This document shows, in pieces, positions 2,270 to 36,381 of a stretch of DNA of 64,000 nucleotides. The stretch's first letter is position 1. Every line of letters begins with the position of its first letter. A program made the translations under genes and the position numbers. Below the pieces are notes generated by a model. It saw only the letters and a list, made by a program, of their open reading frames with translations, was not told the DNA's origin and made no database searches. Location: positions 29,596,289 through 29,660,288 of the forward strand of contig CM030365.1 in assembly GCA_017893485.1 (NCBI GenBank). Direction: 5' to 3'. The stretch comes from Hemerocallis citrina (taxonomy: Eukaryota; Streptophyta; Magnoliopsida; Asparagales; Asphodelaceae).

Positions 2270-3278
2270 TGTAACACCCCGAATTCCAAAACAAACTGAA
2301 TTCGAAGTTCCACAGGATCTTTACACTTCTTTCGTACAATTTTACAAGGAAATAAAAACTTTTTGTTACATCAGAGTTTATACTTACATTACATATTTAC
2401 AGCGGAAGCAATTTTACAACAAATACATGAATTTAAATGTACAACGCTTGGATCATTCTTTAATCTGCATACATTCTTTAGTCTTGTTAATCACTTTACC
2501 CTGCATAAAAACTGTGGGTGCGTCAGTTGCTTACAACCGTCGAAATATTATATACCTGTAGCGCCCCGAATTTCTAATAAGATATCTTAGAAAATACGTG
2601 GCACATTCCCAGCAATCCACTTCAATATAATATTAAACACAACCAACACCACTAAATTTTTTAACTTTTATTACATCAATCACTTACATAGCACAGCGGA
2701 AATTAAAACATCTCAACTCATAATTTTCTTTATTTACAACACAATCTTTTTACAACTCTGCTTTTACAAATTTAGACAAAACTCTTATTAAGTCACTTTT
2801 TCTCAAAACCAACTCAAGCATCCAATCTCCAACTCTAAGCAACAACCTGCATCATGTGAGGCTAGAGATGATCCCTAACCCCCAAACTAAAGGGGTCAGC
2901 CATAAATGGTGTGAGTGACATAAAATCAACAAACAACATAAATGAACATACCTCACAAATTCTGAAACAACATATATTAAATAAGAAATGGGAAGTGAGA
3001 AATGACAGTAAACGTGAAAACATCAAGTGGAACTAAACTAAGTGTCGGGGTGTAGAAAACAGAAAACCACATGCATAAATCCAAGTCAAGAAAACACAAT
3101 TTCTATATGCTGACTCACTAATGCGTACTTGTCGGAGTCTACGCATCACATTCTACATAGGTCTGGTGCAAGCTCTTAACGTCTTCACTTCATAGGGTTC
3201 AATCCCCCGCTATGCAACTAATCCTAACACGATGACTACTATGAGATAAAAATAAACTATGGATAGTATCTCATGCCC

Positions 3279-3549
3279 GATAATTCCGGAGATAGATCCC
3301 ACACCCAAGATATTTCACTTGAATAATTCCGGAGATCATCCCACACCGAAACATTGACACGTCACCACACGAATACCACATGTGCTTCACCTCGACTCCG
3401 ATAATTCCGGAGATCAATCCCACACCACAAGTAGTTACCGTGATAATTTCGGAGATTGTCCCACACCACAAGACTGTGATAATTCCGGAGACATATCCCA
3501 CACCACTTATAATCTACTGTGATAATTCCGGAGATTAAATCCCACACCG
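3279..3549. repeat. GATAATTCCGGAGA repeat array, LTR1
   Basis: Six imperfect units share the core GATAATTCCGGAGAT, a few variable bases, then TCCCACACC, and are spaced about 35-75 bp apart. Equivalent arrays are at 10943-11214 and 18608-18879. A single related motif (AATTCTGGAG...TCCACACC) is present in LTR A at about 53167. The array keeps a minus-strand frame open, which is a by-product and not a gene. Confidence 0.8.
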
Positions 3550-3949
3550 AAAGCCATACTGAGTTTCTTGACTCATGTTCCCGTTCATCATATCACCACT
3601 AGTGCCTGTCCTTATCGTTTTTGGGTTAATTAATTACTTAACGAATCTCCTAGAGTGGTGTACCCTACCGACCTAAATTTAAAACTGAATAACTGAACTA
3701 CCTCTACGGGCGTCAACAAATAACTCAACACCGGTATACTAGGGTCACACACCTCTAGAGACACAAACTCAAAAGTCTAAACCAAAGTCCCACTAAACAA
3801 AGGTGGCTCAACTGAATATCTCAAATCAAGTACTAAACTGAATGTCTCAAAATCAAATATTGAACTGAATGTCAAGTATAGACTGAATTATCTGAAAACC
3901 AATCATTCGAAATAACACTCAAACTTACCAAGATCCTTCAGTACCAGTT

Positions 3950-4360
3950 GACTTATACTGTAGTAAGTCGACTGCCCAGAGGATAAATATCCAAAATTTC
4001 ACAAAAATAAACTAAGTCATGTAAGTCGACTTATAATTGAATCAGTCGACTTACCAGAGGTAAATTCCAATAATTTCTCAAAATATATTCTAAGTACGTA
4101 AGTCGACTGAAAGGAGTCATAGGTCGACTGTCCAGAAAGGACTAATAATTTTTACAAAATAAATTCCTCAGTGAACCAGTCGACTGCCTACGAGCTAGGT
4201 CGACTGTCCAGAAAGAACTCATAATTTTTACAAAATAAATTCCTCAGGAACCAATCGACTGCCTACGCGCTAGGTCGAGTGTCCAGAACGATTTTTCATG
4301 GATTCTAAAATACAGTAGCAGGCTCGTACCAGTCGACTGTACAGTAGGCCAGTCGACTGT
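3950..4360. repeat. Paired GTCGAC palindrome cluster, LTR1
   Basis: A series of AGTCGACT-type palindromes occurs in pairs about 20-30 bp apart, with AT-rich spacers (AATTTTTACAAAATAAATTCCTCAG) between pairs. LTR1 has a few point-mutated copies (GTTGAC, ATCGAC). The cluster recurs at 11608-12025 and 19273-19690, and in related form in LTR A. Function unknown. Confidence 0.8.
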
Positions 4361-5535
4361 CGGCCTACAGTTTTTCACAATTTTAGATCTGATTACAAAA
4401 TCAAAACTGGGGTTTTCTAAAGATTCATTGTTTATGAAAATAGTTCGTATTCAGGCAAAATGACAAATCTCAACAAATCCTCATTATGGATATATTATTC
4501 AAAACATCAATATGTCGAAACTCAAGTTCTCATGTTCTAGATCACTAATCCTTTCATTAGGGTTTCACAAGACTATATTTCTTTCACAAATCTAAATCAA
4601 AATCCGATTTACAATGTATAAGATCCAGGCGTTCACCATCCGATCATAACCATACTCAAATCTTAATCTTGTCTTTAGCAATACGATTTTATAAACAAAG
4701 ATCTACTAATCATTCGTAGATTTCACAACATGGTATAAACAACAATCATTATTCACATGAATCATACCACAATACAAGATCTATATCATTCACAACATCA
4801 ATAAACTATATTGCCACTCGCATACATGGATCAACCATAAGACAAATTTATATCATTCACAAACAAAACAAAACACACAATGTCACTCACATGAATCAAA
4901 CAATAAAATAAATTTTATATCACTCACCTTGAATTGAGAATATTCAACGAAAAGCTTTCCTTTTGCTAGATCCAAACCTCTTCTTTCTCCACCAAAATAA
5001 ATCTCCAAAAATTCTGTATTTTCTTCTCACTGACGGCTGAAAGAAATCCTTTAAATATCCGGGATTAGGAGTTTAGGGTTTTACCCCACTTTTGCAAATT
5101 AATCCTTTCCAAAATACAACTTCACATATATAGGTATAGTCTTGGAAATCCATTCAAAATTCATTTAAATTTGGATTTAAAGGTAAAATATACTCATAAA
5201 TCTCAATTGGTACTGTTCAAAACATCCATAAATCACATTTTGCACTTTAACCCTTAAAATGTCAAATTTGCAAAAAGGTCCTTCTTTTCTCAAAAATTAC
5301 AAATAGTTCCGATTAATTTCAGAAAAATCTGAAAAAATATTAAATAAATCCCAAATATTAAATAATGATTTTTCATAAAGAAAATTAAATTTTCAAACTT
5401 CTCATAAAAGTATTTGCACGTGTTTTGCACGGGTATGAAGATAAACCTTTTAGAAAATATTAATTAAATCTCCAAAAATCAATTTAAATTCATTTTCAAA
5501 TATAAAAATAATATTTGAAAATACGGGGTTCTACA

Positions 5536-5550
5536 TCACTCCCTACTTAG
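5536..5550 (-). other. B polypurine tract, left element
   Basis: On the minus strand this reads CTAAGTAGGGAGTGA immediately before the LTR start TGTAGAACCCC. That is the usual position of the plus-strand DNA primer. The same tract is at 13201-13215. Confidence 0.75.
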
Positions 5551-5735
5551 AAGAGTTCTGTCCTCAGAACTACTACAAATGAGTCCAAACCACATACCAA
5601 CAAAGGAAATAATATCTCATAAATAGAACATAGTCCAAACAATTGCATATGACAACATAATCAAAATAGGAGAATTATAACTCAATCAATGGTACAATCA
5701 TTCAAAAGAATTACAATCACACAAAAGAAATACGC

Positions 5736-6167
5736 TCATACAAAAAGTTCAGGGAAATCCTTCTGCATGCGATCCTCTGGCTCCTAATTAGCCTCCTCGA
5801 ATTGCTGATTCCTCCACAACACCTTGAACATAGGTATCACCTTGCGCATGAGAACTTTCTCTCTACGGTCAACGATCTCAACAGGCTATTCCTTATATCT
5901 CAAGTTCACCTGTAGATCTTCAGGAATCTCTACCAACTGATGATTCTGATCTGGCACATACTTCCTCAACAATGACACATGGAATACATCATGCACTTGT
6001 GCCAACTCCTCTGGAAGCTTCAATCTATATGCTGTCTTGCCAATCCGCTCCATGATCCTGTATGGCCCAATATACCTTGGCGCCAACTTGCCTCCCTTAC
6101 CAAACCTGATCACTCCTTTGGTCGGAGAAACCTTGAGGAAAACTGCATCCCCAACCTCAAACTCCAA
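5736..6167 (-). pseudogene. B1 integrase C-terminus with chromodomain-like tail
   Basis: The open part (5886-6167) begins with an EFEVGD / FLKVSP segment, then [15 protein letters not shown] (the GPY/F-type module) and [13 protein letters not shown]. Downstream, to the stop at 5736, the frame continues through VEIVDRREKVL and ends in FPELFV, a chromodomain-like tail as in Tekay/Del integrases. Three in-frame stops break it: a TGA before RDLEFEVGD (6171-6173), a TAG after YKE and a TAG in the FEEAN.EPED motif. Intact relatives have Q and W at the last two, so each fits a single C-to-T or G-to-A change. It would tether the integration complex to chromatin if intact. Confidence 0.85.
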
Positions 6168-6173
6168 GTCTCT

Positions 6174-7472
6174 TCATCGAGTATCAGCATAACTCTTCTG
6201 CCGACTCTGAGCCTCAACCAACCTCTTGCGAATCAGCTCAATCTGCTCCGACGTCTGCTGCACGATCTCAGGACCATACATCTGCCTCTCGCCAACCTCA
6301 TACCAACAAACAGGTGTCCTGCACCTCCTCCCGTACAAAGCCTCATACGGTGCCATCCCGATACTCGCATGGTAACTGTTGTTATAAGCAAACTCAACCA
6401 ATGCCAAGTATCTCTCCCAACTACCACCGAAATCCATAACACAAGCCCTCAGCATATCTTCCGGCACTCGATTCACCCTCTCAGTCTGACCATCAGTCTG
6501 TGGATGAAATGCGGTACTAAAATCAGTTCTGGTGCCTAAAGCTGCTTGTAAGCTCTTCCAAAACCTTGACGTAAACCTTGCATCTCTGTCGAAAACAATC
6601 GACACAGGAACTCCATGAAGTCTCACAATTTCCCCAATGTACAACTCAGCCAATTTCTCCATCGACCAAGTAATCTTCATGGCTAGAAAGTGAGCCGACT
6701 TAGTCAAACGGTCCACAACAACCCAAATCGAGTCATTGCCCTTCGAACTCCTCGGCAAACCCGTGATGAAATCCATACTGATATTCTCCCATTTCCACTC
6801 CGAAATGGGCAATAGTTGTAATAATCCTCCAGGTCTCTGATTTTCTGCTTTGATCTGCTGACAAGTCAGACACCTTGCCACGAAATCAGCCACATCCCTC
6901 TTCATACCAGACCACCAAAAGTGCTGTTTGATGTCCCTGTACATCTTCGTGCCTCCTGGATGAACTGACAACAAGGTACTGTGTGCTTCTTGCAAGATAC
7001 TCTCTCTCAAATCTGCATTATCTGGAACACACAACCTCTCACCCATCCAAAGAATTCCATCCTGGACACGAAACTCTGATAGCTTGCCTTCTGAAACCTG
7101 TTGCAACATCTTCTGAATCTCTGAGTCTGATCTCTGACCTTCCACAATCCTCTCTCTCAAGGACGGCTGCAGCCTCAACTGAGCCAAAGATGTCTCTAAA
7201 CCTTGCAGCACCACCTCGATACCTGCCCGATCAATCTCTACTGCCAACTCTCTGCGAGTAGTGATCAAACTCGATAAACTACTCTTCCTGCTAAGTCCAT
7301 CAGTCACCACATTCGCCTTGCCCGGGTGATACTTGATCTCAGGACGAATGTCTTCCAATACTTCCAACCACCTTCTCTGCCGAAGATTTAGATCCTTCTG
7401 TTGATAAATGTACTTCAGGCTCTTGTGGTCGGTGTACATGTTAACCTTCTCACCATAAACATAATCCTCCAC
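6174..7472 (-). pseudogene. B1 RNase H end and integrase core
   Basis: This 432-codon open segment starts in late RNase H ([11 protein letters not shown], then [14 protein letters not shown]). The integrase HHCC zinc-binding set follows: H164, H171, C201 and C204. The catalytic triad is complete: D234 in [10 protein letters not shown]295 in FDRDARFTS and E331 in QTERVN, with 35 residues between the last two. It would join element cDNA to host DNA. A frameshift near 7470 (KQWR to DYVYGEK) separates it from the RNase H segment and a TGA ends it at 6171-6173. It is the best preserved domain of the array. Confidence 0.9.
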
Positions 7473-7939
7473 TGCTTCAAGGCATAAATGATAGCTGCTA
7501 GCTCCAAATCATGTGTCGGATAATTCTTCTCATGCGGACGCAATTGCCTGGAACCATAAGCAATAATTCTGCCTTCTTGCATCAGGACACAACCCAAACC
7601 TCTGAGAGACGCATCACTGTAGATATCATAATCCTTTCCAGCTTGTGGCAAAGCTAAGATAGGTGCAGTAGTCAACCTTTCCTTTAACTCAAGGAAACTC
7701 TCCTCACACTTATCAGTTCATATAAATGTCACATTCTTCCGGGTCAAACATGTCAAAGGAACTGTAATCTGAGAATAACCCTGGATGAATCTCCTGTAGT
7801 AACCAGCTAAACCCAAGAAACTTCGGACTTCCTTCACAGACGTTGGCCTGGGCCAATCCTTAACTGCTTCAACTTTCTGAGGATCATTAGCTACTCCCTC
7901 CTTAGAAAGAATATGACCAAGGAAAGCTACCTCAGACTT
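7415..7939 (-). pseudogene. B1 RT connection and RNase H
   Basis: On the minus strand the frame reads [25 protein letters not shown], then an in-frame TGA (7718-7720) where relatives have W (FKWTEQCE in G). It continues with the RNase H signature [36 protein letters not shown] and ALKQWR. RNase H removes the RNA strand during cDNA synthesis. The frame is lost after KQWR and continues in the next segment (6174-7472), which overlaps by a frameshift. Confidence 0.85.
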
Positions 7940-8671
7940 TCAAAACTCACACTTCGACAATTTGGCATACAAGCTATGCTCCTGCAATTTCTGTAATACC
8001 GCTGTCAAGTGCATAGAATGATCCTCCTCCGACTTCGAATACACCAAGATATCGTCGATGAAAATCACCACGAAGGAGTCAATAAATGGCCTCAAAATCC
8101 GATTCATCATATCCATGAACACTACTGGCGCATTCGTCAACCCGAATGGCATTACCAAAAACTCATAGAGTCCATGACGAGTCCTGAAAGCTGTCTTACT
8201 CACATCTTCCTCCTTGAATCGAACCTGATGATACCCCGATCTCAAATCAATCTATCAAAATACAGCTGCTCCTCGAAGCCTGTCGAACAAGTCATCAATC
8301 CGCGGCAGTGGATACTTATTCTGAATAGTCACCCTATTCAACTCCCGATAGTCAATGCACATCCTCATTGACCCATCTTTCTTCTTGACCAACAATACTG
8401 GCGCTCCCCACGGAGAAGAACTCGGCCTAATAAGCCCTTTGCTCAACAGCTCCTCAATCTGCTTCATCACTTCATCTTGCTCTACAGGTGCCATCCTGTA
8501 CGGAGCCTTAGAAATCGGCACACTCCCTGGCTGAACATTGATGCAAAACTCCACATCCCTCTGCGGCGGTAATCTTGGAAAATCATCGAAGAACACCTTA
8601 GGAAAATCTCGAACAACCGGAATGCCCTTGACTTCATCTGAAATTGCCATCTTGGATACCATGGTAGCCAC
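7940..8671 (-). pseudogene. B1 reverse transcriptase
   Basis: The N-terminal half (8255-8671) has [49 protein letters not shown] and CIDYRELN, typical of gypsy RT fingers. The C-terminal half (7940-8245) has [20 protein letters not shown] and the catalytic FIDDILVYS. Two adjacent stops (TGA TAG) interrupt the AVF..IDLRSG palm motif between them, and a TGA replaces the W of CEFW at 7940-7942. Both copies of the array share these stops. Confidence 0.92.
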
Positions 8672-8692
8672 CTTCGGAATCTTCTTCTTCCC

Positions 8693-9073
8693 TTAGAAAG
8701 TCACTGCGGGTCCACCTGGTGCTTTCACCAACACTTCTTTCTGCTTGCATTCAATTGTGGCATCATATATTGCCATCCAATCAATGCCCAAGATGACATC
8801 CACTTCCAAGACTTGCAGCTCGATCAAATCGATGCCGAACAACCTCCCACCAATCTCGATATCACAGCCCTCGTAATATCGATCCGCAATCAACTCTTCA
8901 CCTGAAGGCGTTGCCACCGACAAAATCCTGCCTGGAAACAACTTAGGTTCCACACCTAAGATCTTTGCAAAACTTGGCGATAAAAAAGTATGCGATGAAC
9001 CAGTGTCAAATAAAACCTTTGCCTTTATTCCATTAATTAAAATAACTCCTGTTACAATAAGAACGATACTCAA
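8693..9073 (-). pseudogene. B1 aspartic protease
   Basis: This 126-codon open segment has the retropepsin-type site LFDTGSSHTF (DTG at residues 23-25) and the distal VILGIDWM motif near residues 93-100. It would cleave the gag-pol polyprotein. It is separated from RT by a stop near 8690 and from gag by about 55 bp with stops. The catalytic triplet is intact, so this part decayed less than its neighbours. Confidence 0.88.
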
Positions 9074-9128
9074 TCTTAAATTGTTCTCAAATAAAGGTTT
9101 TACTTATTACATTGATTCAAAATAAAAA

Positions 9129-9988
9129 TCAGAATTCTTGCATACCCTGTATTACATCTTCCGAGTTACCAGCGTCCTCCTTGGTTAATGCAAATATTCG
9201 CCCTTGCCTCTTCTGAAATTTGCATCCACCCGAACCATCCTTCCTCAATTGTGGACAATGGGGCTGAGAATGTCCTGCCTGCCCACACTGGGAACAAATT
9301 TGCTTCGCCAACTTCGGACACGCTGACCTGTAATGTCCTGCCTCCTTGCAGTAATAACAGGTCACCCCCTGAGTTGCAGGTGCCTTCTGCACCGGATCAC
9401 TGAACTTGGCCTGCTTCGCTGGGAATCCCTTCCCACTCTGGCCTGATGCTGGCCTCTTGTTCCGGTTCCATGTATCTTGCCTCTTCTGGAACTGGTCCAT
9501 ATCTTCCTCAGTCATAGCTGCTCTCCTGACCAGCTTGTCGAATCTTCTGATGCCCAACGGAATCATCCTCGACCTCAAGTTTGGCCTCAAGCCCTACTCA
9601 AACTTTTTGGCCTTCTTTGCCTCGTCAACAACTAACTCTGGTGCATATCTCAAAAGTTGAGCAAACTTGGTCTCATACTCCCGCACGGTCATGCTGCCCT
9701 GCTGAAGGTTCAAGAACTCGGTCGTCTTCTTCTCCTGAACATCTAGGGGAAAGAAGCGATCTTTGAACTCCTCCAGAAAAGCTTCCCAAGTCAACTGCTG
9801 ATCTCCCAAAGTCCTCATCAGCGACTCCCACCAGATACCAGCGTCCTTCTCTATCTGCATCGTAGCTAACTTCATCTTACTATCTGATACACCTTGGCGA
9901 ATTCAGTCTCAAGATCGATTCCCGTTCCTCGAGAACTACCAGATCCATCCTCATTGTTGCCACCATTCCTGCCCCTGGGTGCAACCAT
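9129..9988 (-). pseudogene. B1 gag with internal deletion
   Basis: The likely start is the ATG at 9986-9988 (MVAPRGRNGG...). The N-terminus reads to LETEFAKVYQIVR and then hits TGA. The next piece (9594-9875) starts in a different frame at DAGIWWESLMRTLGDQQLTWEAF. By comparison with the gag of C and G, about 75 residues are missing here, including the DDWIHQVETVFEV motif. An in-frame TAG (9594-9596) precedes the last piece (9129-9590). That piece holds two CX2CX4HX4C zinc knuckles (C78-C91 and C99-C112 of the piece) and ends in RIFALTKED. It is a nucleocapsid-type protein for RNA packaging. Confidence 0.9.
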
Positions 9989-10204
9989 TCTGAATACTAC
10001 AAAACGAGGAAAAAATTAGAGCATCACACAATTCAAACTCACATCAATATCCTTTGGCAAAACTTCACTTGTATTCCAAAGGTAAAACATCATATTTCAG
10101 TTCTATGTGATACTCACTCTTTAATGTCCACACCTAGGTACTCACACTCTAGTGTCCACACCTAGGTTATTTTTATGTCATGTTTAGTATTACTATTGAA
10201 GCGT

Positions 10205-10216
10205 GCTCTGATACCA
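10205..10216 (-). other. PBS, tRNA-iMet type, left B element
   Basis: The minus strand reads TGGTATCAGAGC five bases inside the LTR end (spacer GAGAT). This is the standard 12-nt complement of plant initiator tRNA-Met 3' end, and it fixes the element orientation as minus. Confidence 0.93.
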
Positions 10217-10542
10217 ATCTCTGTAGCGCCCCAAATTTCTAATAAGATATCTTAGAAAATACGTGGCACATTCCCAGCAATCCACTTCAATATAATATTA
10301 AACACAACCAACACCACTAAATTTTTCAACTTTTATTACATCAATCACTTACATAGCATAACGGAAATTAAAACATCTCAACTCATAATTTGCTTTATTT
10401 ACAACACAATCTTTTTACAACTCTACTTTTACAAATTTACACAAAACTCTTATTAAGTCACTTTTTCTCAAAACCAACTCTAGCATACAATCTCCAACTC
10501 TAAGCAACAACCTGCATCATGTGAGGCTAGAGATGATCCCTA

Positions 10543-10561
10543 ACCCCCAAACAAAAGGGGT
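10543..10561 (-). other. CCCC/GGGG hairpin near LTR B 3' end
   Basis: ACCCC...GGGGT forms a short stem around an A-rich loop. The surrounding string TTGGGGGTTAGGGA (minus strand) is also in LTR D at about 32221-32234 after ATGGCTAACCCCTT. It is about 320 bp from the LTR 3' end and may be an RNA structure in the R/U5 region. Inference only. Confidence 0.45.
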
Positions 10562-10803
10562 CAGCCATAAATGGTGTGAGTGACATAAAATCAACGAACA
10601 ACATAAATGAACATACCTCACAAATTCTGAAACAACATATATTAAATAAGAAGTGGAAAGTGAGAAATGACAGTAAACATGAAAACATCAAGTGGAACTA
10701 AACTAAGTGTCGGGTGTAGAAAACAGGAAACCACATGCATAAATCCAAGTCAAGAAAACACAATTTCTATATGCTGACTCACTAATGCGTACTTGTCGGA
10801 GTC

Positions 10804-10870
10804 TATGCATCCCATTCTACATAGGTCCGGTGCAAGCCCTTAACGTCTTCACTTCATAGGGTTCAATCCC
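10804..10870 (-). other. Shared LTR module (T-arm box and GATGCAT box), LTR2
   Basis: Read in the element sense (minus) there is GGGATTGAACCC (10859-10870), about 35 bp, then CCTATGTAGAATGGGATGCAT (10804-10824). Equivalents lie in LTR1 (about 3144-3210, with mutations), LTR3 (about 18469-18535) and in families A, C, D and F, in the same order and orientation. The first box matches the consensus of a tRNA T-arm / Pol III B box closely. Role unknown. Confidence 0.7.
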
Positions 10871-10942
10871 CCGCTATGCAACTAATCCTAACACGATGAC
10901 TACTACGAGATAAAGATAAACTATGGATAGTATCTCATGCCC

Positions 10943-11214
10943 GATAATTCCGGAGATAGATCCCACACCCAAGATATTTCACTTGAATAATTCCGGAGGT
11001 CATCCCACACCGAAACATTGACACGTCACCACACGAATACCACATGTGCTTCACCTCGACTCCGATAATTCTGGAGATCAATCCCACACTACAAGTAGTT
11101 ACCGTGATAATTCTGGAGATTGTCCCACACCACAAGACTGTGATAATTCCGGAGACATATCCCACACCACTAATAATCTACTGTGATAATTCCGGAGATT
11201 AAATCCCACATCGA
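10943..11214. repeat. GATAATTCCGGAGA repeat array, LTR2
   Basis: Same array as in LTR1 with changes such as AATTCTGGAG in two units. The copy in LTR3 has the same changes. Confidence 0.8.
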
Positions 11215-11607
11215 AAGCCATACTGAGGTTCTTGACTCATGTTCCCGTTCATCATATCACCACTAGTGCCTGTCCTTATCGTTTTCGGGTTAATTAATTA
11301 CTTAACGAATCTCCTAGAGTGGTGTACCCTACCGGCCTAAATTTAAAACTGAATAACTGAAATACCTCTACGGGCCTCAACAAATAACTCAACACCGGTA
11401 TACTAGGGTCACACACCTCTAGAGACTCAAACTCAAAAGTCGAAACCAAAGTCCCACTAAACAAAGGTGGCTTAACTGAATATCTCAAATCAAGTACTAA
11501 ACTGAATGTCTCAAAATCAAATATTGAACTGAATGTCAAGTATAGACTGAATTATCTGAAAACCAATCATTCGAAATAACACTCAAACTTACCAAGATCC
11601 TTCAGTA

Positions 11608-12025
11608 CCAGTCGACTTATACTGTAGTAAGTCGACTGCCCAGAGGATAAATATCCAAAATTTCACAAAAATAAACTAAGTCATGTAAGTCGACTTATAA
11701 GATAATCGGTCGACTTACCAGACGTAAATTCCAATAATTTCTCAAAATATATTCTAAGTACGTAAGTCGACTGAAAGGAGTCATAGGTCGACTGTCCAGA
11801 AAGGACTAATAATTTTTACAAAATAAATTCCTCAGTGAACCAGTCGACTGCCTACGAGCTAGGTCGACTGTCCAGAAAGAACTCATAATTTTTACAAAAT
11901 AAATTCCTCAGGAACCAGTCGACTGCCTACGAGCTAGGTCGACTGTCCAGAACGATTTTTCATGGATTCTAAAATACAGTAGCAGGCTCGTACCAGTCGA
12001 CTGTACAGTAGGCCAGTCGACTGTC
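11608..12025. repeat. Paired GTCGAC palindrome cluster, LTR2
   Basis: Twelve GTCGAC sites fall in six pairs over about 420 bp. The clearest pair reads CCAGTCGACTGCC, about 10 bp, then AGGTCGACTGTCC, and is repeated twice in succession with the same AT-rich spacer. All twelve sites are intact here and in LTR3, unlike LTR1. Confidence 0.82.
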
Positions 12026-12209
12026 GGCCTACAGTTTTTCACAATTTTAGATCTGATTACAAAATCAAAACTGGGGTTTTCTAAAGATTCATTGTTTATG
12101 AAAATAGTTCGTATTCAGGCAAAATGACAAATCTCAACAAATCCTCATTATGGATATATTATTCAAAACATCAAATATGTCGAAACTCAAGTTCTCATGT
12201 TCTAGATCT

Positions 12210-12471
12210 CTAATCCTTTCATTAGGGTTTCACAAGACTATATTTCTTTCACAAATCTAAATCAAAATCCGATTTACAATGTATAAGATCCAGGCGTTCA
12301 CCATCCGATCATAACCATACTCAAATCTTAATCTTGTCTTTAGCAATACGATTTTATAAACAAAGATCTACTAATCATTCGTAGATTTCACAACATGGTA
12401 TAAACAACAATCATTATTCACATGAATCATACCACAATACAAGATCTATATCATTCACAACATCAATAAAC
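12210..12471. other. Inferred recombination switch interval in LTR2
   Basis: The last LTR3-specific base is T12209 (ATCTCTAATCC; LTR1 has ATCACTAATCC). The first LTR1-specific base is T12472 (AAACTATATTG; LTR3 has AAACAATATTG). The 262 bp between them carry no base that tells the parents apart, so the crossover or conversion end lies here. Confidence 0.8.
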
Positions 12472-13200
12472 TATATTGCCACTCGCATACATGGATCAAC
12501 CATAAGACAAATTTATATCACTCACAAACAAAACAAAACACACAATGTCACTCACATGAATCAAACAATAAAATAAATTTTATATCACTCACCTTGAATT
12601 GAGAATATTCAACGAAAAGCTTTCCTTTTGCTAGATCCAAACCTCTTCTTTCTCCACCAAAATAAATCTCCAAAAATTCTGTATTTTCTTCTCAATGACG
12701 GCTGAAAGAAATCCTTTAAATATCCGGGATTAGGAGTTTAGGGTTTTACCCCACTTTTGCAAATTAATCCTTTCCAAAATACAACTTCACATATATAGGT
12801 ATAGTCTTGGAAATCCATTCAAAATTCATTTAAATTTGGATTTAAAGGTAAAATATACTCATAAATCTCAATTGGTACTGTTCAAAACATCCATAAATCA
12901 CATTTTGCACTTTAACCCTTAAAATGTCAAATTTGCAAAAAGGTCCTTCTTTTCTCAAAAATTACAAATAGTTCCGATTAATTTCAGAAAAATCTGAAAA
13001 AATATTAAATAAATCCCAAATATTAAATAATGATTTTTCATAAAGAAAATTAAATTTTCAAACTTCTCATAAAAGTATTTGCACGTGTTTTGCACGGGTA
13101 TGAAGATAAACCTTTTAGAAAATATTAATTAAATCTCCAAAAATCAATTTAAATTCATTTTCAAATATAAAAATAATATTTGAAAATACGGGGTTCTACA

Positions 13201-13215
13201 TCACTCCCTACTTAG
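13201..13215 (-). other. B polypurine tract, right element
   Basis: Identical to 5536-5550: minus strand CTAAGTAGGGAGTGA next to the LTR2 end. Confidence 0.75.
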
Positions 13216-13400
13216 AAGAGTTCTGTCCTCAGAACTACTACTAATGAGTCCAAACCACATACCAACAAAGAAAATAATATCTCATAAATAGAACATAGTC
13301 CAAACAATTGCATATGACAACATAATCAAAATAGGAGAATTATAACTCAATCAATGGTACAATCATTCAAAAGAATTACAATCACACAAAAGAAATACGC

Positions 13401-13832
13401 TCATACAAAAAGTTCAGGGAAATCCTTCTGCATGCGATCCTCTGGCTCCTAATTAGCCTCCTCGAACTGCTGATTCCTCCACAACACCTTGAACATAGGT
13501 ATCACCTTGCGCATGAGAACTTTCTCTCTACGGTCAACGATCTCAACAGGCTATTCCTTGTAACTCAAGTTCACCTGTAGATCTTCAGGAATCTCTACCA
13601 ACTGATGATTCTGATCTGGCACATACTTCCTCAACAATGACACATGGAATACATCATGCACTTGTGCCAACTCCTCTGGAAGCTTCAATCTATATGCTGT
13701 CTTGCCAATCCGCTCCATGATCCTGTATGGCCCAATATACCTTGGCGCCAACTTGCCTCCCTTACCAAACCTGATCACTCCTTTGGTCGGAGAAACCTTG
13801 AGGAAAACTGCATCCCCAACCTCAAACTCCAA
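13401..13832 (-). pseudogene. B2 integrase C-terminus with chromodomain-like tail
   Basis: This is the second copy of the GPY/F and chromodomain-like segment, shifted by 7665 bp. It has the same three in-frame stops as the left copy. The one residue difference in the open part is S for R in the LQVNL(R/S)YKE stretch, due to TTGTAACTC in place of TTATATCTC. It confirms that the stops predate the duplication or were shared by conversion. Confidence 0.85.
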
Positions 13833-13838
13833 GTCTCT

Positions 13839-15137
13839 TCATCGAGTATCAGCATAACTCTTCTGCCGAATCTGAGCCTCAACCAACCTCTTGCGAATCA
13901 GCTCAATCTGCTCCGACGTCTGCTGCACGATCTCAGGACCATACATCTGCCTCTCGCCAACCTCATACCAACAAACAGGTGTCCTGCACCTCCTCCCGTA
14001 CAAAGCCTCATACGGTGCCATCCCGATACTCGCATGGTAACTGTTGTTATAAGCAAACTCAACCAATGCCAAGTATCTCTCCCAACTACCACCGAAATCC
14101 ATAACACAAGCCCTCAGCATATCTTCCGGTACTCGATTCACCCTCTCAGTCTGACCATCAGTCTGTGGATGAAATGCGGTACTGAAATCAGTTCTGGTGC
14201 CTAAAGCTGCTTGTAAGCTCTTCCAAAACCTTGAAGTAAACCTTGCATCTCTGTCGAAAACAATCGACACAGGAACTCCATGAAGTCTCACAATTTCCCC
14301 AATGTACAACTCAGCCAATTTCTCCATCGACCAAGTAATCTTCATGGCTAGAAAGTGAGCCGACTTAGTCAAACGGTCCACAACAACCCAAATCGAGTCA
14401 TTGCCCTTCGAACTCCTCGGCAAACCCGTGATGAAATCCATACTGATATTCTCCCATTTCCACTCCGAAATGGGCAATAGTTGTAATAATCCTCCAGGTC
14501 TCTGATTTTCTGCTTTGATCTGCTGACAAGTCAGACACCTTGCCACGAAATCTGCCACATCCCTCTTCATACCAGACCACCAAAAGTGCTGTTTGATGTC
14601 CCTGTACATCTTCGTGCCTCCTGGATGAACTGACAACAAGGTACTGTGTGCTTCCTGCAAGATACTCTCTCTCAAATCTGCATTATCTGGAACACACAAC
14701 CTCTCACCCATCCAAAGAATTCCATCCTGGACACGAAACTCTGATAGCTTGCCTTCTGAAACCTGTTGCAACATCTTCTGAATCTCTGAGTCTGATCTCT
14801 GACCTTCCACAATCCTCTCTCTCAAGGACGGCTGCAGCCTCAACTGAGCCAAAGATGTCTCTAAACCTTGCAGCATCACCTCGATACCTGCCTGATCAAT
14901 CTCTACTGCCAACTCTCTGCGAGTAGTGATCAAACTCGATAAACTACTCTTCCTGCTAAGTCCATCAGTCACCACATTCGCCTTGCCCGGGTGATACTTG
15001 ATCTCAGGACGAATGTCTTCCAATATTTCCAACCACCTTCTCTGCCGAAGATTTAGATCCTTCTGTTGATAAATGTACTTCAGGCTCTTGTGGTCGGTGT
15101 ACATGTTAACCTTCTCACCATAAACATAATCCTCCAC
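13839..15137 (-). pseudogene. B2 RNase H end and integrase core
   Basis: This is a 432-codon open segment with the same HHCC set and D234, D295, E331 triad as the left copy. Four residues differ from it: I for V in LE(V/I)LEDIR, Q for R in EID(R/Q)AG, M for V in IEV(V/M)LQG and I for S in EAQ(S/I)RQK. These and silent changes all fall in 13201-15026. Beyond that point the two internals look identical. Confidence 0.9.
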
Positions 15138-15604
15138 TGCTTCAAGGCATAAATGATAGCTGCTAGCTCCAAATCATGTGTCGGATAATTCTTCTCATGC
15201 GGACGCAATTGCCTGGAACCATAAGCAATAATTCTGCCTTCTTGCATCAGGACACAACCCAAACCTCTGAGAGACGCATCACTGTAGATATCATAATCCT
15301 TTCCAGCTTGTGGCAAAGCTAAGATAGGTGCAGTAGTCAACCTTTCCTTTAACTCAAGGAAACTCTCCTCACACTTATCAGTTCATATAAATGTCACATT
15401 CTTCCGGGTCAAACATGTCAAAGGAACTGTAATCTGAGAATAACCCTGGATGAATCTCCTGTAGTAACCAGCTAAACCCAAGAAACTTCGGACTTCCTTC
15501 ACAGACGTTGGCCTGGGCCAATCCTTAACTGCTTCAACTTTCTGAGGATCATTAGCTACTCCCTCCTTAGAAAGAATATGACCAAGGAAAGCTACCTCAG
15601 ACTT
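15080..15604 (-). pseudogene. B2 RT connection and RNase H
   Basis: Same content as the left copy: YYRRFIQGY connection, TGA in place of W at 15383-15385, RNase H motif [15 protein letters not shown] and the frameshift after KQWR. I saw no nucleotide difference from 7415-7939, in contrast with the integrase end. Confidence 0.85.
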
Positions 15605-16336
15605 TCAAAACTCACACTTCGACAATTTGGCATACAAGCTATGCTCCTGCAATTTCTGTAATACCGCTGTCAAGTGCATAGAATGATCCTCCTCCGACTT
15701 CGAATACACCAAGATATCGTCGATGAAAATCACCACGAAGGAGTCAATAAATGGCCTCAAAATCCGATTCATCATATCCATGAACACTACTGGCGCATTC
15801 GTCAACCCGAATGGCATTACCAAAAACTCATAGAGTCCATGACGAGTCCTGAAAGCTGTCTTACTCACATCTTCCTCCTTGAATCGAACCTGATGATACC
15901 CCGATCTCAAATCAATCTATCAAAATACAGCTGCTCCTCGAAGCCTGTCGAACAAGTCATCAATCCGCGGCAGTGGATACTTATTCTGAATAGTCACCCT
16001 ATTCAACTCCCGATAGTCAATGCACATCCTCATTGACCCATCTTTCTTCTTGACCAACAATACTGGCGCTCCCCACGGAGAAGAACTCGGCCTAATAAGC
16101 CCTTTGCTCAACAGCTCCTCAATCTGCTTCATCACTTCATCTTGCTCTACAGGTGCCATCCTGTACGGAGCCTTAGAAATCGGCACACTCCCTGGCTGAA
16201 CATTGATGCAAAACTCCACATCCCTCTGCGGCGGTAATCTTGGAAAATCATCGAAGAACACCTTAGGAAAATCTCGAACAACCGGAATGCCCTTGACTTC
16301 ATCTGAAATTGCCATCTTGGATACCATGGTAGCCAC
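15605..16336 (-). pseudogene. B2 reverse transcriptase
   Basis: Fingers and palm (15920-16336) and the FIDDILVYS catalytic half (15605-15910) are separated by the same adjacent TGA TAG stops as in the left copy. The translations of both halves are identical to the left copy. Independent occurrence of paired stops is very unlikely, so they mark common descent. Confidence 0.92.
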
Positions 16337-16357
16337 CTTCGGAATCTTCTTCTTCCC

Positions 16358-16738
16358 TTAGAAAGTCACTGCGGGTCCACCTGGTGCTTTCACCAACACT
16401 TCTTTCTGCTTGCATTCAATTGTGGCATCATATATTGCCATCCAATCAATGCCCAAGATGACATCCACTTCCAAGACTTGCAGCTCGATCAAATCGATGC
16501 CGAACAACCTCCCACCAATCTCGATATCACAGCCCTCGTAATATCGATCCGCAATCAACTCTTCACCTGAAGGCGTTGCCACCGACAAAATCCTGCCTGG
16601 AAACAACTTAGGTTCCACACCTAAGATCTTTGCAAAACTTGGCGATAAAAAAGTATGCGATGAACCAGTGTCAAATAAAACCTTTGCCTTTATTCCATTA
16701 ATTAAAATAACTCCTGTTACAATAAGAACGATACTCAA
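16358..16738 (-). pseudogene. B2 aspartic protease
   Basis: Second copy of the 126-codon protease segment with DTG at residues 23-25 and VILGIDWM. The protein is identical to the left copy, with the same flanking stops. Confidence 0.88.
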
Positions 16739-16793
16739 TCTTAAATTGTTCTCAAATAAAGGTTTTACTTATTACATTGATTCAAAATAAAAA

Positions 16794-17653
16794 TCAGAAT
16801 TCTTGCATACCCTGTATTACATCTTCCGAGTTACCAGCGTCCTCCTTGGTTAATGCAAATATTCGCCCTTGCCTCTTCTGAAATTTGCATCCACCCGAAC
16901 CATCCTTCCTCAATTGTGGACAATGGGGCTGAGAATGTCCTGCCTGCCCACACTGGGAACAAATTTGCTTCGCCAACTTCGGACACGCTGACCTGTAATG
17001 TCCTGCCTCCTTGCAGTAATAACAGGTCACCCCCTGAGTTGCAGGTGCCTTCTGCACCGGATCACTGAACTTGGCCTGCTTCGCTGGGAATCCCTTCCCA
17101 CTCTGGCCTGATGCTGGCCTCTTGTTCCGGTTCCATGTATCTTGCCTCTTCTGGAACTGGTCCATATCTTCCTCAGTCATAGCTGCTCTCCTGACCAGCT
17201 TGTCGAATCTTCTGATGCCCAACGGAATCATCCTCGACCTCAAGTTTGGCCTCAAGCCCTACTCAAACTTTTTGGCCTTCTTTGCCTCGTCAACAACTAA
17301 CTCTGGTGCATATCTCAAAAGTTGAGCAAACTTGGTCTCATACTCCCGCACGGTCATGCTGCCCTGCTGAAGGTTCAAGAACTCGGTCGTCTTCTTCTCC
17401 TGAACATCTAGGGGAAAGAAGCGATCTTTGAACTCCTCCAGAAAAGCTTCCCAAGTCAACTGCTGATCTCCCAAAGTCCTCATCAGCGACTCCCACCAGA
17501 TACCAGCGTCCTTCTCTATCTGCATCGTAGCTAACTTCATCTTACTATCTGATACACCTTGGCGAATTCAGTCTCAAGATCGATTCCCGTTCCTCGAGAA
17601 CTACCAGATCCATCCTCATTGTTGCCACCATTCCTGCCCCTGGGTGCAACCAT
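16794..17653 (-). pseudogene. B2 gag with internal deletion
   Basis: The start is the ATG at 17651-17653. It has the same deletion of about 75 residues, the same in-frame TAG (17259-17261) and the same two zinc knuckles as the left copy. The proteins match exactly. The shared deletion shows that the master copy of this array lacked a complete gag. Confidence 0.9.
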
Positions 17654-17869
17654 TCTGAATACTACAAAACGAGGAAAAAATTAGAGCATCACACAATTCA
17701 AACTCACATCAATATCCTTTGGCAAAACTTCACTTGTATTCCAAAGGTAAAACATCATATTTCAGTTCTATGTGATACTCACTCTTTAATGTCCACACCT
17801 AGGTACTCACACTCTAGTGTCCACACCTAGGTTATTTTTATGTCATGTTTAGTATTACTATTGAAGCGT

Positions 17870-17881
17870 GCTCTGATACCA
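17870..17881 (-). other. PBS, tRNA-iMet type, right B element
   Basis: Minus strand TGGTATCAGAGC, five bases from LTR3. It is identical in context to 10205-10216. Confidence 0.93.
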
Positions 17882-18607
17882 ATCTCTGTAGCGCCCCAAA
17901 TTTCTAATAAGATATCTTAGAAAATACGTGGCACATTCCCAGCAATCCACTTCAATATAATATTAAACACAACCAACACCACTAAATTTTTCAACTTTTA
18001 TTACATCAATCACTTACATAGCATAACGGAAATTAAAACATCTCAACTCATAATTTGCTTTATTTACAACACAATCTTTTTACAACTCTACTTTTACAAA
18101 TTTACACAAAACTCTTATTAAGTCACTTTTTCTCAAAACCAACTCTAGCATACAATCTCCAACTCTAAGCAACAACCTGCATCATGTGAGGCTAGAGATG
18201 ATCCCTAACCCCCAAACAAAAGGGGTCAGCCATAAATGGTGTGAGTGACATAAAATCAACGAACAACATAAATGAACATACCTCACAAATTCTGAAACAA
18301 CATATATTAAATAAGAAGTGGAAAGTGAGAAATGACAGTAAACATGAAAACATCAAGTGGAACTAAACTAAGTGTCGGGTGTAGAAAACAGGAAACCACA
18401 TGCATAAATCCAAGTCAAGAAAACACAATTTCTATATGCTGACTCACTAATGCGTACTTGTCGGAGTCTATGCATCCCATTCTACATAGGTCCGGTGCAA
18501 GCCCTTAACGTCTTCACTTCATAGGGTTCAATCCCCCGCTATGCAACTAATCCTAACACGATGACTACTACGAGATAAAGATAAACTATGGATAGTATCT
18601 CATGCCC

Positions 18608-18879
18608 GATAATTCCGGAGATAGATCCCACACCCAAGATATTTCACTTGAATAATTCCGGAGGTCATCCCACACCGAAACATTGACACGTCACCACACG
18701 AATACCACATGTGCTTCACCTCGACTCCGATAATTCTGGAGATCAATCCCACACTACAAGTAGTTACCGTGATAATTCTGGAGATTGTCCCACACCACAA
18801 GACTGTGATAATTCCGGAGACATATCCCACACCACTAATAATCTACTGTGATAATTCCGGAGATTAAATCCCACATCGA
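18608..18879. repeat. GATAATTCCGGAGA repeat array, LTR3
   Basis: Six units, same sequence as the LTR2 array. Confidence 0.8.
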
Positions 18880-19272
18880 AAGCCATACTGAGGTTCTTGA
18901 CTCATGTTCCCGTTCATCATATCACCACTAGTGCCTGTCCTTATCGTTTTCGGGTTAATTAATTACTTAACGAATCTCCTAGAGTGGTGTACCCTACCGG
19001 CCTAAATTTAAAACTGAATAACTGAAATACCTCTACGGGCCTCAACAAATAACTCAACACCGGTATACTAGGGTCACACACCTCTAGAGACTCAAACTCA
19101 AAAGTCGAAACCAAAGTCCCACTAAACAAAGGTGGCTTAACTGAATATCTCAAATCAAGTACTAAACTGAATGTCTCAAAATCAAATATTGAACTGAATG
19201 TCAAGTATAGACTGAATTATCTGAAAACCAATCATTCGAAATAACACTCAAACTTACCAAGATCCTTCAGTA

Positions 19273-19690
19273 CCAGTCGACTTATACTGTAGTAAGTCGA
19301 CTGCCCAGAGGATAAATATCCAAAATTTCACAAAAATAAACTAAGTCATGTAAGTCGACTTATAAGATAATCGGTCGACTTACCAGACGTAAATTCCAAT
19401 AATTTCTCAAAATATATTCTAAGTACGTAAGTCGACTGAAAGGAGTCATAGGTCGACTGTCCAGAAAGGACTAATAATTTTTACAAAATAAATTCCTCAG
19501 TGAACCAGTCGACTGCCTACGAGCTAGGTCGACTGTCCAGAAAGAACTCATAATTTTTACAAAATAAATTCCTCAGGAACCAGTCGACTGCCTACGAGCT
19601 AGGTCGACTGTCCAGAACGATTTTTCATGGATTCTAAAATACAGTAGCAGGCTCGTACCAGTCGACTGTACAGTAGGCCAGTCGACTGTC
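19273..19690. repeat. Paired GTCGAC palindrome cluster, LTR3
   Basis: Twelve sites in six pairs, same as LTR2. In the sense of the element the cluster lies about 1.2-1.6 kb into the LTR, downstream of the TATA-like box. Confidence 0.82.
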
Positions 19691-20379
19691 GGCCTACAGT
19701 TTTTCACAATTTTAGATCTGATTACAAAATCAAAACTGGGGTTTTCTAAAGATTCATTGTTTATGAAAATAGTTCGTATTCAGGCAAAATGACAAATCTC
19801 AACAAATCCTCATTATGGATATATTATTCAAAACATCAAATATGTCGAAACTCAAGTTCTCATGTTCTAGATCTCTAATCCTTTCATTAGGGTTTCACAA
19901 GACTATATTTCTTTCACAAATCTAAATCAAAATCCGATTTACAATGTATAAGATCCAGGCGTTCACCATCCGATCATAACCATACTCAAATCTTAATCTT
20001 GTCTTTAGCAATACGATTTTATAAACAAAGATCTACTAATCATTCGTAGATTTCACAACATGGTATAAACAACAATCATTATTCACATGAATCATACCAC
20101 AATACAAGATCTATATCATTCACAACATCAATAAACAATATTGCCACTCGCATACATGGATCAACCATAAGACAAATTTATATCATTCACAAACAAAACA
20201 AAACACACAATGTCACTCACATGAATCAAACAATAAAACAAATTTTATATCACTCACCTTGAATTGAGAATATTCAACGAAAAGCTTTCCTTTTGCTAGA
20301 TCCAAACCTCTTCTTTCTCCACCAAAATAAATCTCCAAAAATTTTGTATTTTCTCCTCAATGACGGCTGAAAGAAATCC

Positions 20380-20387
20380 TATAAATA
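20380..20387 (-). promoter_or_regulatory. TATA-like box, LTR B3
   Basis: The plus strand reads CCTATAAATATCC and the minus strand GGATATTTATAGG. It is about 480 bp from the LTR 5' end in the minus sense and is followed by TTTCTTTCAGCCGTC. LTR1 and LTR2 have TTTAAATA here. Promoter use is an inference. Confidence 0.4.
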
Positions 20388-21048
20388 TCCGGGATTAGGA
20401 GTTTAGGGTTTTACCCCACTTTTGCAAAATAATCCTTTTCAAAATACAACTTCACATATATAGGTATAGTCTTGGAAATCCATTCAAAATTCATTTAAAT
20501 TTGGATTTAAAGGTAAAATATACTCATAAATCTCAATTGGTACTGTTCAAAACGTCCATAAATCACATTTTGCACTTTAACCCTTAAAAATGTCAAATTT
20601 GCAAAAAGGTCCTTCTTTTCTCAAAAATTACAAATAGTTCCAATTAATTTCAGAAAAATCTGGAAAAATATTAAATAAATCCCAAATATTAAATAATGAT
20701 TTTTCATAAAGAAAATTAAATTTTCAAACTTCTCATAAAAGTATTTGCACGTGTTTTGCACGGGTATGAAGATAAACCTTTTAGAAAATATTAATTAAAT
20801 CTCCAAAAATCAATTTAAATCCATTTTCAAATATAAAAATAGTATTTGAAAATACGGGGTTCTACAACACGGCTATTCTCACTGTGTCGGAACAAGTATA
20901 ACGATTCTCAAATGCTCAAACAAACCACAAAGTTGATCACAAACAAAACTACAAGGGACTATCCTATAGATGTCGTGTTGTGCGGTGCGCTAGTCCTTAA
21001 TGCAGTTATTTATATTAGATGACACTAATGCACACTTTTTCAGATTCT

Positions 21049-21117
21049 ATGCATCCCAAACTACATAGGTCTGAGGGCAAGCCCTTAACCGTTCTTCATC
21101 TTGCAGGGTTCAATCCC
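21049..21117 (-). other. Shared LTR module, solo LTR A
   Basis: In the minus sense GGGATTGAACCC (21106-21117), about 36 bp, then CCTATGTAGTTTGGGATGCAT (21049-21069), followed by AATCTGAAAAAGTGTGCATTAG. Same order as in families B, C and D. Confidence 0.7.
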
Positions 21118-22064
21118 TCGTTATGACTTAAATACTACTGTAACTACGATAAGTATCCTAGATGTTCTATGAGTTACGAGCTCATGTCCAGACAGCCTGG
21201 AGGGGAATCCTACATCATGTCACGACGCATCATGAAGAACCTATGGATAATTCAGCCTCTGTCATGGGACATGATACCACCCGTAGTCACCAAACACCAC
21301 ACGATCGTCGCCTGCAGTACGGACTCCTGGAGACATATCCACGTCATCGTGAATACAGCCTATGAATACTCTCACACCGTAGCTCTGACGCCCTCATACT
21401 CGTGTTTTTCTCTTATTTTCGTCACCTCTTCACTATACATCTAATCCTTAGTTATTTGAATCATGAACAAAATCAATTCTCTAGAGTTAGTCTTTCCACT
21501 ATACCGGTCTTAATTGTCTATTCAACATGACCCAATCTTGGTCTTTTCATCTCAAATTTCATTTCAACTTATCTCTTTTCATTTCCGGTATGAGGCTTAA
21601 CTACAGTAGTTCTCAATTTCAATTCACAATCACAAAATCGAGTTTTCACAGTCAATAAGTCTTTTTCATGATCAACAATAGTTTTCCTTTCATGTTCATA
21701 GCATTTGTATATTCATGCTCATAAAATCTTTCATAATTCATCATAACATTCAATTTCACTTTCATGTACAAACTCATGCATAAACCAAAGAATTCATTTT
21801 TCTAACTTGTCACATTCATAGCTCATTCTTCCCATGAAATTACCGTACTGTCATTTTATCAAAAATTTACACTTTCTTTGCCAAAACTCATTTCAAAACT
21901 CTTTTAAAGAAGGCATGTATTTTTCTTTATTCAAGGACAATTTGTACTAATAAAAATAATAAGTTCTTTCTTGCCAAAAATAGTCTCAAATCCTTATTTA
22001 TACTGGGCCACAGGTTATAGAAAATTCTTCCACAAAAATCCAGATATTAGTTGAAACTTCAGGG

Positions 22065-22285
22065 CAGTCGATTGTTAGGACATGGACGGTCGGCTGTTCT
22101 GTGAGGATTTACAACTCGAAAATCAATGATCAGGGTAGTCGATTGTCACAGTGTAGTCGGTCGACTGATCCGCAAGGGTTTGAACTCAAAAACAAATAAT
22201 CAGGATGGTCGACTGTTCTGCAAAGATTTGAACTCGAAAACAATTACTCGGAGCAGTCGACTGTTTCAATATAATTGGTCGACTG
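22065..22285. repeat. GTCGACTG motif cluster, solo LTR A
   Basis: Degenerate and intact AGTCGACTG motifs (for example GGTCGACTGATCC, GCAGTCGACTGTTTC, GGTCGACTGATGC) alternate with a spacer of the type AACTCGAAAACAATNANTCAGG. The pairing resembles the B cluster although the spacer differs. Confidence 0.7.
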
Positions 22286-23193
22286 ATGCTACTAGGTTTT
22301 TCAAATTCCAAAAATGTTTTTAGTTCTTTTTCTTCTCTTTTGAGTCAAAAATATCCATATTTCAAAATGTATGAGATTACAGCAAGCCAGTATTTTTATA
22401 ATCATTATTTACTAATAAAACATGCATTTTTTATCTTATTTTATGTTCTATGTCCAAAATTCCGACAATGGGAACAAATCATAGTTGCACACATTTTGAA
22501 ATATAAATTTTTACAAAAATATTTCATTCCCTTTTTTTTCATTCATTAATCAATCAGATTAACTTAGAACATTGAAAATTTTCTTTCTTACTACGATGAG
22601 ATCACTCACAATCAACCAAATCAATTTCACATGAAGCATTCAATTTTGCCTCATATATAGAGATTTTCTTCACACAACATGGTTCTTTAATATCTAGCAT
22701 GGCAAAACATGATATCTTCTAGCATTTTAACTCATAATTTATCAACTAGCAATCACTTCAACACACATCTTCTAAATTACCAATTCATCTCTACATAAGC
22801 AACCATAGGCCAACTTCACTTAAGTTTTTGTTAACAATTCTATTAAAACATTCCTAGCATGGTATCTAGCTTTGGAAGCATGAGAAACACCCACCTTATA
22901 TGGAGAGAAAAATCCAAAGAACTTCCATAGAATCTCCTACAACGAATGAACAAGGCCTTCTTCTCCTAGATCAACCACCAAGTTGTGCCTCTGCTTATAG
23001 TGATGCAAGCAAACTGAGACTCCCTCTTCTTGATCCTTGAAAAATTCGTCCTCCTCCTTGGATGAAGAACACAATAGTACACAATCTCACAACTCCTCAA
23101 TCTTTTGCCTCACTAAAATTACTTCTCTTTCTTTTCTTTCTATTCTTTTCTTTCAAAAATTCTAAGTGTGAGAATGAAGAGTATAGTGAGGGG

Positions 23194-23201
23194 TATTTAT
23201 A
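23194..23201 (-). promoter_or_regulatory. TATA box, solo LTR A
   Basis: The minus strand reads TATAAATACCCCTCAC, a typical plant TATA context, followed by ACTCTTCATTCTCACAC. The second A LTR has TATAAATACCCCCC at 54909-54916. It lies about 550 bp from the LTR 5' end in both, which supports a real promoter. Confidence 0.65.
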
Positions 23202-23748
23202 CAAAATTTTAGGATGAATGAAGGGCTAAGATGTGATGAAATGGTTAGAGATCAATGGTCTAGATAAACTAGGGAGTTATGAAAACTACCCATGATGAAC
23301 AACCACCTCTCCACCACTTCCATCACTCCCACTCCTCCATCAACAATCCGGCCTATGGGGGAAAAGTGTGCAATGCACACCTTGGTGCTTGCACGTGCCA
23401 CCTAGTGTCCTCATTTACAAATTTGTTCAAGTGAAAAATTTAATTGTCCATGAAATGAGTCTACACTACAAGTTAGACCATTTCATAAGAGAATTAAAGT
23501 AAATGGGCTCACTAATGGGCCAAACTAACCATGGGCTCAAAATAATTAAATAATTAAAAAATTTAGTGGGCTTAAAAAAGACAATTAGGCCTAGATTGAA
23601 ATTAGTCTTTTAAAGAGAATAATTTTAGGAAAATAAAGAGAACAATTACGATATAAAAAATATTTCACGAGAAATTATACAAATAAAATCGTACATGCAC
23701 AACACGTAAAAATCACAAAATCTCATAAATCAATTCTAGGGTGTTGCA

Positions 23749-23753
23749 AGCAT
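23749..23753. repeat. Right TSD of solo LTR A (AGCAT)
   Basis: Matches 2265-2269. Confidence 0.85.
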
Positions 23754-25415: not shown

Positions 25416-25589
25416 GCATTTCCGAAGTCTTGCTTGCATTAGAAGTAGGCATGTGATTGATGCATCTAGTTGTAGGATCATGGCATACAACAACACTATA
25501 ACCCGAATCTATTAACCCTTAGTTGTTCTCTTTTGCATAAATTATGGTTGTGATTGTTAGTTTGGAGATCGCTGTTATTATCAGCATTG

Positions 25590-36021: not shown

Positions 36022-36059
<38 letters not shown>

Positions 36060-36379: not shown

Positions 36380-36381
36380 TT

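Follow-up and report, generated by a model that had tools for sequence, protein, structure and literature searches.

A mosaic middle repeat in a tandem retrotransposon array of Hemerocallis citrina points to unequal exchange between the long terminal repeats of one broken element

We analysed a stretch of 64,000 nucleotides of Hemerocallis citrina (assembly GCA_017893485.1, contig CM030365.1, positions 29,596,289 to 29,660,288 of the forward strand). This whole stretch is called the window below, and positions are counted from its first letter. When the window was compared with itself, we observed a retrotransposon array in which three long terminal repeats (LTRs) alternate with two internal regions in the order LTR-internal-LTR-internal-LTR. 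The array begins and ends with an LTR, and its outer bounds are 2557-20866. The parts of the array were as follows.

2557-5535, minus strand: LTR1, the left outer LTR (the 3' LTR in the coding sense), delimited by its TGT...ACA ends and the self-alignment.
5536-10221, minus strand: internal 1 (unit A), a broken gag-pol region with Pfam matches on seven of eight frame pieces and a tRNA-primer-type site at its right end.
10222-13200, minus strand: LTR2, the shared middle LTR, from the three-way LTR alignment and difference counts in two parts.
13201-17886, minus strand: internal 2 (unit B), with 14 differences from internal 1.
17887-20866, minus strand: LTR3, the right outer LTR (the 5' LTR in the coding sense), delimited by its TGT...ACA ends and the self-alignment.

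Successive LTR starts were separated by exactly 7665 bp. The LTRs were 2979, 2979, and 2980 bp long, starting with TGT and ending with ACA, and both internals were 4686 bp long. The dominant direct repeat paired 2556-13204 with 10221-20870, and another paired 2556-5539 with 17886-20870. The original prediction, made from the letters of this DNA before our analysis, had proposed three LTRs and two internals with an exact 7665-bp period, and the self-comparison and the alignments bore this out.

Subsequently, the type of the element was examined. The right end of each internal, read on the minus strand, was TTGGTATCAGAGC, which we take to be the primer site that plant elements commonly use for initiator tRNA-Met, and a purine-rich stretch was present at the left end of each internal. 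These two signals place the coding strand on minus and make LTR3 the 5' LTR. In internal 1, separate frame pieces matched, in this order, the Pfam models Retrotrans_gag, zf-CCHC, RVP_2, RVT_1, RT_RNaseH_2, Integrase_H2C2, and SH3_Tf2-1. No Pfam model matched the remaining piece of the eight (8255-8692), and for 6174-7508 the Pfam search did not list the integrase core model PF00665. Judged by gag, protease, reverse transcriptase (RT), RNase H, and integrase in gypsy order, the element is of the Ty3/gypsy type. A protein search used the 444-amino-acid RNase H/integrase piece as the query, and the best 120 of 7979 scored candidates were listed. Among the listed matches covering at least 90% of the query, the top identity was 64% (P0017) and the others reached at most 61%; the organism-named rows among the listed matches were flowering plants, bar one archaeal metagenome entry (P0026). 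A 33-amino-acid downstream piece had no Pfam match; it resembled the C-terminal ends of two proteins that carry the chromodomain PF00385, with identities of 64% (P0086) and 45% (P0005). A Tekay-like chromovirus (Tekay/Del lineage) is likely, not proved.

Five stop codons were found at equal positions in both internals, as listed below.

5784-5786, minus strand: stop in the chromodomain-like tail, at the same place in internal 2.
5886-5888, minus strand: stop, at the same place in internal 2.
8252-8257 (internal 1) and 15917-15922 (internal 2), minus strand: TGA TAG pair in the RT frame of both internals.
9594-9596, minus strand: stop in gag, at the same place in internal 2.

The stops at 5784-5786 and 5886-5888 fall inside the block where the internals differ (described below), so that later homogenisation does not explain their sharing. 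Furthermore, gag was shorter by about 200 bp than in two related elements in the window, and its two matched parts lay in different frames here and in a common frame in one of these relatives. Paired TGA TAG stops in the RT of both internals and a gag deletion had both been predicted; the former were found as described, and the latter is supported by the comparison with the two relatives. The idea that a dead element was amplified also holds, with two of the five co-located stops inside the diverged block.

We also examined the site of insertion.

2552-2556, no strand: left flank of the insertion, ATACC; the right flank, 20867-20871, is ACACG.
2270-2556 and 20867-23748, no strand: host of the array, apparently a solo LTR of another family, with a 5-bp AGCAT target repeat at 2265-2269 and 23749-23753.

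The ends of the host and its perfect AGCAT repeat are typical of a solo LTR, about 3.17 kb net, and the host looks like one that belongs to another family. Two adjoining stretches of a related LTR at 52427-54074 were matched by the flanks, 2270-2556 on the left and the sequence from 20867 on the right, and the two matches overlapped by 4 bp at 52710-52713 of this uninterrupted relative. The flanks are contiguous in the relative, which suggests that no target sequence was lost and that the array as a whole occupies one insertion point. The related LTR is the left LTR of a related Ty3/gypsy element at 52427-60000 (72% identical over 55570-58481); it is uninterrupted at the corresponding point and serves as the empty-site control for the array. 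The surroundings of the solo LTR (1155-2265 and 23754-25873) have a second copy at 47029-50265, which is 85-89% identical and lacks the solo LTR and all its contents.

The three LTRs were then compared column by column. LTR1 and LTR3 differed at 62 columns over 2979 bp (59 substitutions and three gap columns). Up to 12209, LTR2 agreed with LTR3 at all 48 of these columns; from 12472 onward, it agreed with LTR1 at 13 of 14. The two sides are separated by one interval.

12210-12471, no strand: switch interval in LTR2, 262 bp equal in LTR1, LTR2, and LTR3.

When counted in two parts, the left part of LTR2 (10222-12209) had 48 differing columns against LTR1 and 0 of 1988 against LTR3, and the right part (12210-13200) had two differences against LTR1 and 14 against LTR3. 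Along LTR2 the order of states was 48 LTR3-like, four LTR1-like, one LTR3-like (12695), and nine LTR1-like; at site 12521 the state was private to LTR2. The probability of four or fewer runs if the order were random was about 1.5e-10. The switch interval is the longest run of identity between LTR1 and LTR3; at 262 bp, about 9% of the LTR length, the location of the switch in this run is weak evidence on its own. The prediction that LTR2 is LTR3-like to 12209 and LTR1-like from 12472 was confirmed with two exceptions that it had not listed, 12695 and 12521, and the alignment of LTRs and internals with mapping of diagnostic sites, which had been proposed as its check, placed the sites in order and not scattered at random.

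We next describe the differences between the two repeat units, with unit A defined as 4545-12209 and unit B as 12210-19874. The units contained 16 differences in 7665 bp, every one of which was within the first 2817 bp, dividing unit A into a diverged and an identical part.

4545-7361, no strand: diverged block of unit A, 2817 bp that differ from 12210-15026 at 16 places.
7362-12471, no strand: identical block, 5110 bp equal letter for letter to 15027-20136.

Internals 1 and 2 differed at 14 of 4686 positions, all 14 in 5577-7361 and none in 7362-10221, and the 5110 bp of 7362-12471 and 15027-20136 were without any difference. Slow mutation was rejected as the cause of the identical block, because its LTR part has 48 LTR1/LTR2 differences per 1988 bp. 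Indeed, zero differences between LTR2 and LTR3 over 1988 bp had a chance of 1.2e-5 at the rate of the other block. The divergences were about 2.1% for the LTR pair (62/2979), 0.57% for the diverged block (16/2817), and less than about 0.06% for the identical block (3/4848). If the age of the insertion is taken as the scale, the last common ancestor of the diverged block would date to roughly one quarter of it, and for the identical block the figure would be below about 3%; these ratios are rough, because LTR conversion is reported to be common in plants, with potential converted regions in 25% of LTR pairs (PMC7251063). The 14 internal differences were polarised with two related elements of the window as outgroups, giving seven changes in unit A, four in unit B, and three unclear; this polarisation is weak, as the outgroups are about 70% identical and four of the seven unit A changes rest on one relative. 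The array LTRs had no match among the other LTRs of the window (self-comparison, E up to 1e-10, matches over 150 bp), so that polarisation was confined to the internal differences.

The outer LTRs were more diverged (62 columns in 2979 bp) than the internals (14 in 4686), with a Fisher P of 2.4e-14 and an odds ratio of 7.1. The direction of the mosaic and the small divergence of the units are as predicted for unequal LTR exchange within one element, which therefore fits best. Our best account, to which we give a probability of roughly 0.78, is that a single element, inserted and already broken, was turned into the array by an unequal exchange of its two LTRs with each other. First, one Ty3/gypsy element with its coding strand on minus would have inserted into the solo LTR of the other family. 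The element would then have lost its coding capacity while its two LTRs drifted about 2% apart. Subsequently, the right LTR of one copy would have paired with the left LTR on the sister chromatid or homologue and exchanged with it, and the product would be LTR1-internal-LTR(3/1)-internal-LTR3, the reciprocal of solo-LTR formation. A deletion product of LTR-LTR recombination in one family would thereby carry a duplication product of another. Recombination that restored an excised circle of the same element is formally equivalent. The structure, the direction of the mosaic, the greater age of the LTRs relative to the duplication of the units, and the shared lesions are read from one assembly; the exchange itself and the partner chromosome are what we infer from them.

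Three observations weigh against this account. Site 12695, where LTR2 equals LTR3, interrupts the mosaic. The 5-bp target repeat is imperfect, with three of five positions equal between ATACC and ACACG; given the level of divergence between the LTRs, the chance of at least two mismatches is about 0.004, and we regard the imperfect repeat as a loose end. Finally, there are 16 unit differences in 2817 bp and none in the next 4848 bp, where a one-step exchange between identical sister chromatids predicts that later differences are spread evenly; this expectation applies to a single event between identical chromatids and does not define the exchange as such. The uneven spread had a Fisher P of 1.1e-7 with the boundary placed at the last difference, and a ring-gap bound, which asks for a gap of that size anywhere and is independent of the choice of boundary, was about 8e-7 at most. 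On these counts, a single event does not account for the spread of the unit differences. The original prediction of unequal crossing over between the LTRs of one element was accordingly upheld in the direction of the mosaic and failed in that one event does not suffice. The prediction had mentioned neither the minus coding strand, nor the confinement of the internal differences to 5577-7361, nor the imperfect target repeat. The switch between 12209 and 12472 would mark the last exchange in LTR2, which need not be the founding crossover.

Unequal LTR exchange within one element can be reconciled with the uneven spread in two ways. After the duplication, the units may have undergone conversion or exchanged unequally a second time, so becoming identical over 5.1 kb, and the founding crossover could then lie elsewhere in the LTR. 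Alternatively, the exchange may have taken place between homologues that differed only in the 2.8-kb block, in which case the duplication would be very young. The locus may even record two successive, datable exchanges, namely the unequal LTR exchange that founded the array and, later, a conversion or another unequal exchange by which more than 4.8 kb were reset; we put this forward tentatively and at somewhat less than even odds. If true, the locus would be a retrotransposon array caught in the earliest phase of concerted evolution towards a 7.7-kb satellite.

The uneven spread also suits an assembly artefact, in which a single element is heterozygous in the 2.8-kb block and the assembler strung its two haplotypes in a row, walking the LTR-internal-LTR loop once per haplotype and joining the two walks in the 262-bp stretch. 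Such a walk would jointly explain one differing block with identity elsewhere, and also a join within the longest run of LTR1/LTR3 identity. However, the window contains no N and an exact repeat of 5110 bp was kept apart in it, which suggests that long reads were used, and reads longer than about 5.5 kb should contradict such a walk. Furthermore, the structure exists in plants, as the rice tandem TLI1 was verified by four spanning reads (PMC11899658). We consider the artefact unlikely, although it is the most serious competitor of the unequal exchange.

Arrival of the array as a ready-made tandem, from a read-through transcript of a one-LTR circle or by template switching during reverse transcription, has been proposed for plant tandems (PMC11899658, PMC1950507) and is in keeping with the apparently single insertion site. 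In a tandem of this kind, however, the LTRs as well as the internals start identical or nearly so and diverge alike, whereas here the LTR pair differs about seven times more than the internals (the Fisher P given above), and LTR2 is an ordered mosaic. Ready-made insertion, which could be rescued only by conversion of a full 7.67-kb period starting and ending at the same LTR position, was rejected as very improbable. Two neighbouring same-family insertions may also fuse through their facing LTRs, with loss of the intervening DNA. This route is cited for all Arabidopsis complexes and the vast majority then known and leaves the middle LTR chimaeric and the flanks without a target repeat (PMC1950507), which the imperfect repeat here recalls, but for this array it is scarcely credible and was rejected, because it would place the left part of LTR2 near LTR1 and the right part near LTR3 and the mosaic runs the opposite way (48 against LTR1 and 0 against LTR3 on the left, two and 14 on the right), both flanks are contiguous in the uninterrupted relative, and the internals carry identical lesions.

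Elsewhere in the window, 27621-33012, 33013-34963, and 34964-43139 form an apparent non-autonomous element. Its LTRs (TGTAAT...TTACA) are about 5.4 kb long, and the internal between them, about 1.95 kb long, has a primer-type site. Parts of the two LTRs are 91-95% identical, and their middles differ (29811-31683 against 38409-41811). A small LTR element is nested in the second long LTR at 35590-36853; its LTRs of about 0.47-0.49 kb are 93% identical and its internal is about 0.3 kb long. Many self-matches at short offsets mark 39955-41161 as an array of short imperfect tandem repeats, and a 245-codon open frame in this region (40430-41164) had no Pfam match at 0.001.

The array bears on how tandem LTR elements arise. 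A 2025 survey of plant tandems left undecided whether they arrive as tandems or form by recombination (PMC11899658), and the question becomes answerable from one assembly once divergence has accumulated between the outer LTRs. Exchange within an element can be told from the fusion of neighbours by the way the mosaic runs in the middle LTR, and LTR divergence set against internal divergence separates both recombination routes from tandem insertion. Applied across many tandems, the same criteria would yield the share of each route, with the caution that a switch point may differ from the founding crossover.

The original prediction also held that such products are rarely caught with parental LTRs still distinguishable. 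As to rarity, this was too strong, because plant tandems are reported to be common and polymorphic. In rice, 66 tandem candidates, 28 of them clear, were reported in Nipponbare and 266 in a pangenome of 76 accessions, with Tekay enriched and the origin left undecided (PMC11899658), and at least 4600 three-LTR structures are cited for barley BARE1 (PMC7215508). Chimaeric middle LTRs from fused neighbours have also been described (PMC1950507). A literature search with thin coverage of subscription journals turned up no plant tandem in which the parental LTR states had been mapped along the middle LTR. The array thus belongs to an already known class, and its particular value is that its diverged outer LTRs make the route legible.

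As in the rice and other plant tandems described by Morales-Diaz et al. (2025, PMC11899658), gypsy internals are present in two copies with three LTRs, a shared middle LTR, and an apparently single site, and one rice tandem locus is likewise nested in another transposon. TLI1 is backed by four spanning reads and TLI2 by many accessions, whereas the present array comes from one assembly. At the polymorphic rice locus on chromosome 2, flanking SNPs could not separate a complex insertion from recombination (PMC11899658); unlike there, the LTR divergence and the LTR2 mosaic do discriminate between the routes here. Three LTRs around two internals are also found in HERV-K(HML-2) at 7p22.1, a human provirus of which tandem and single forms occur in the human population (PMC11807958). 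In Cassandra, unequal crossing-over and conversion of units, both considered here, are among the mechanisms discussed for its arrays (PMC7215508); Cassandra elements are small, lack gag and pol, and form long arrays, whereas the present array has two copies of a gag-pol element. Finally, the template-switching complexes of the Triticeae (Sabot and Schulman 2007, PMC1950507) share three LTRs, two internals, and probably one insertion with our array. Their outer LTRs are highly similar and they have flanking 5-bp repeats, whereas in the array of H. citrina the two outer LTRs differ more than any other pair and the target repeat is imperfect.

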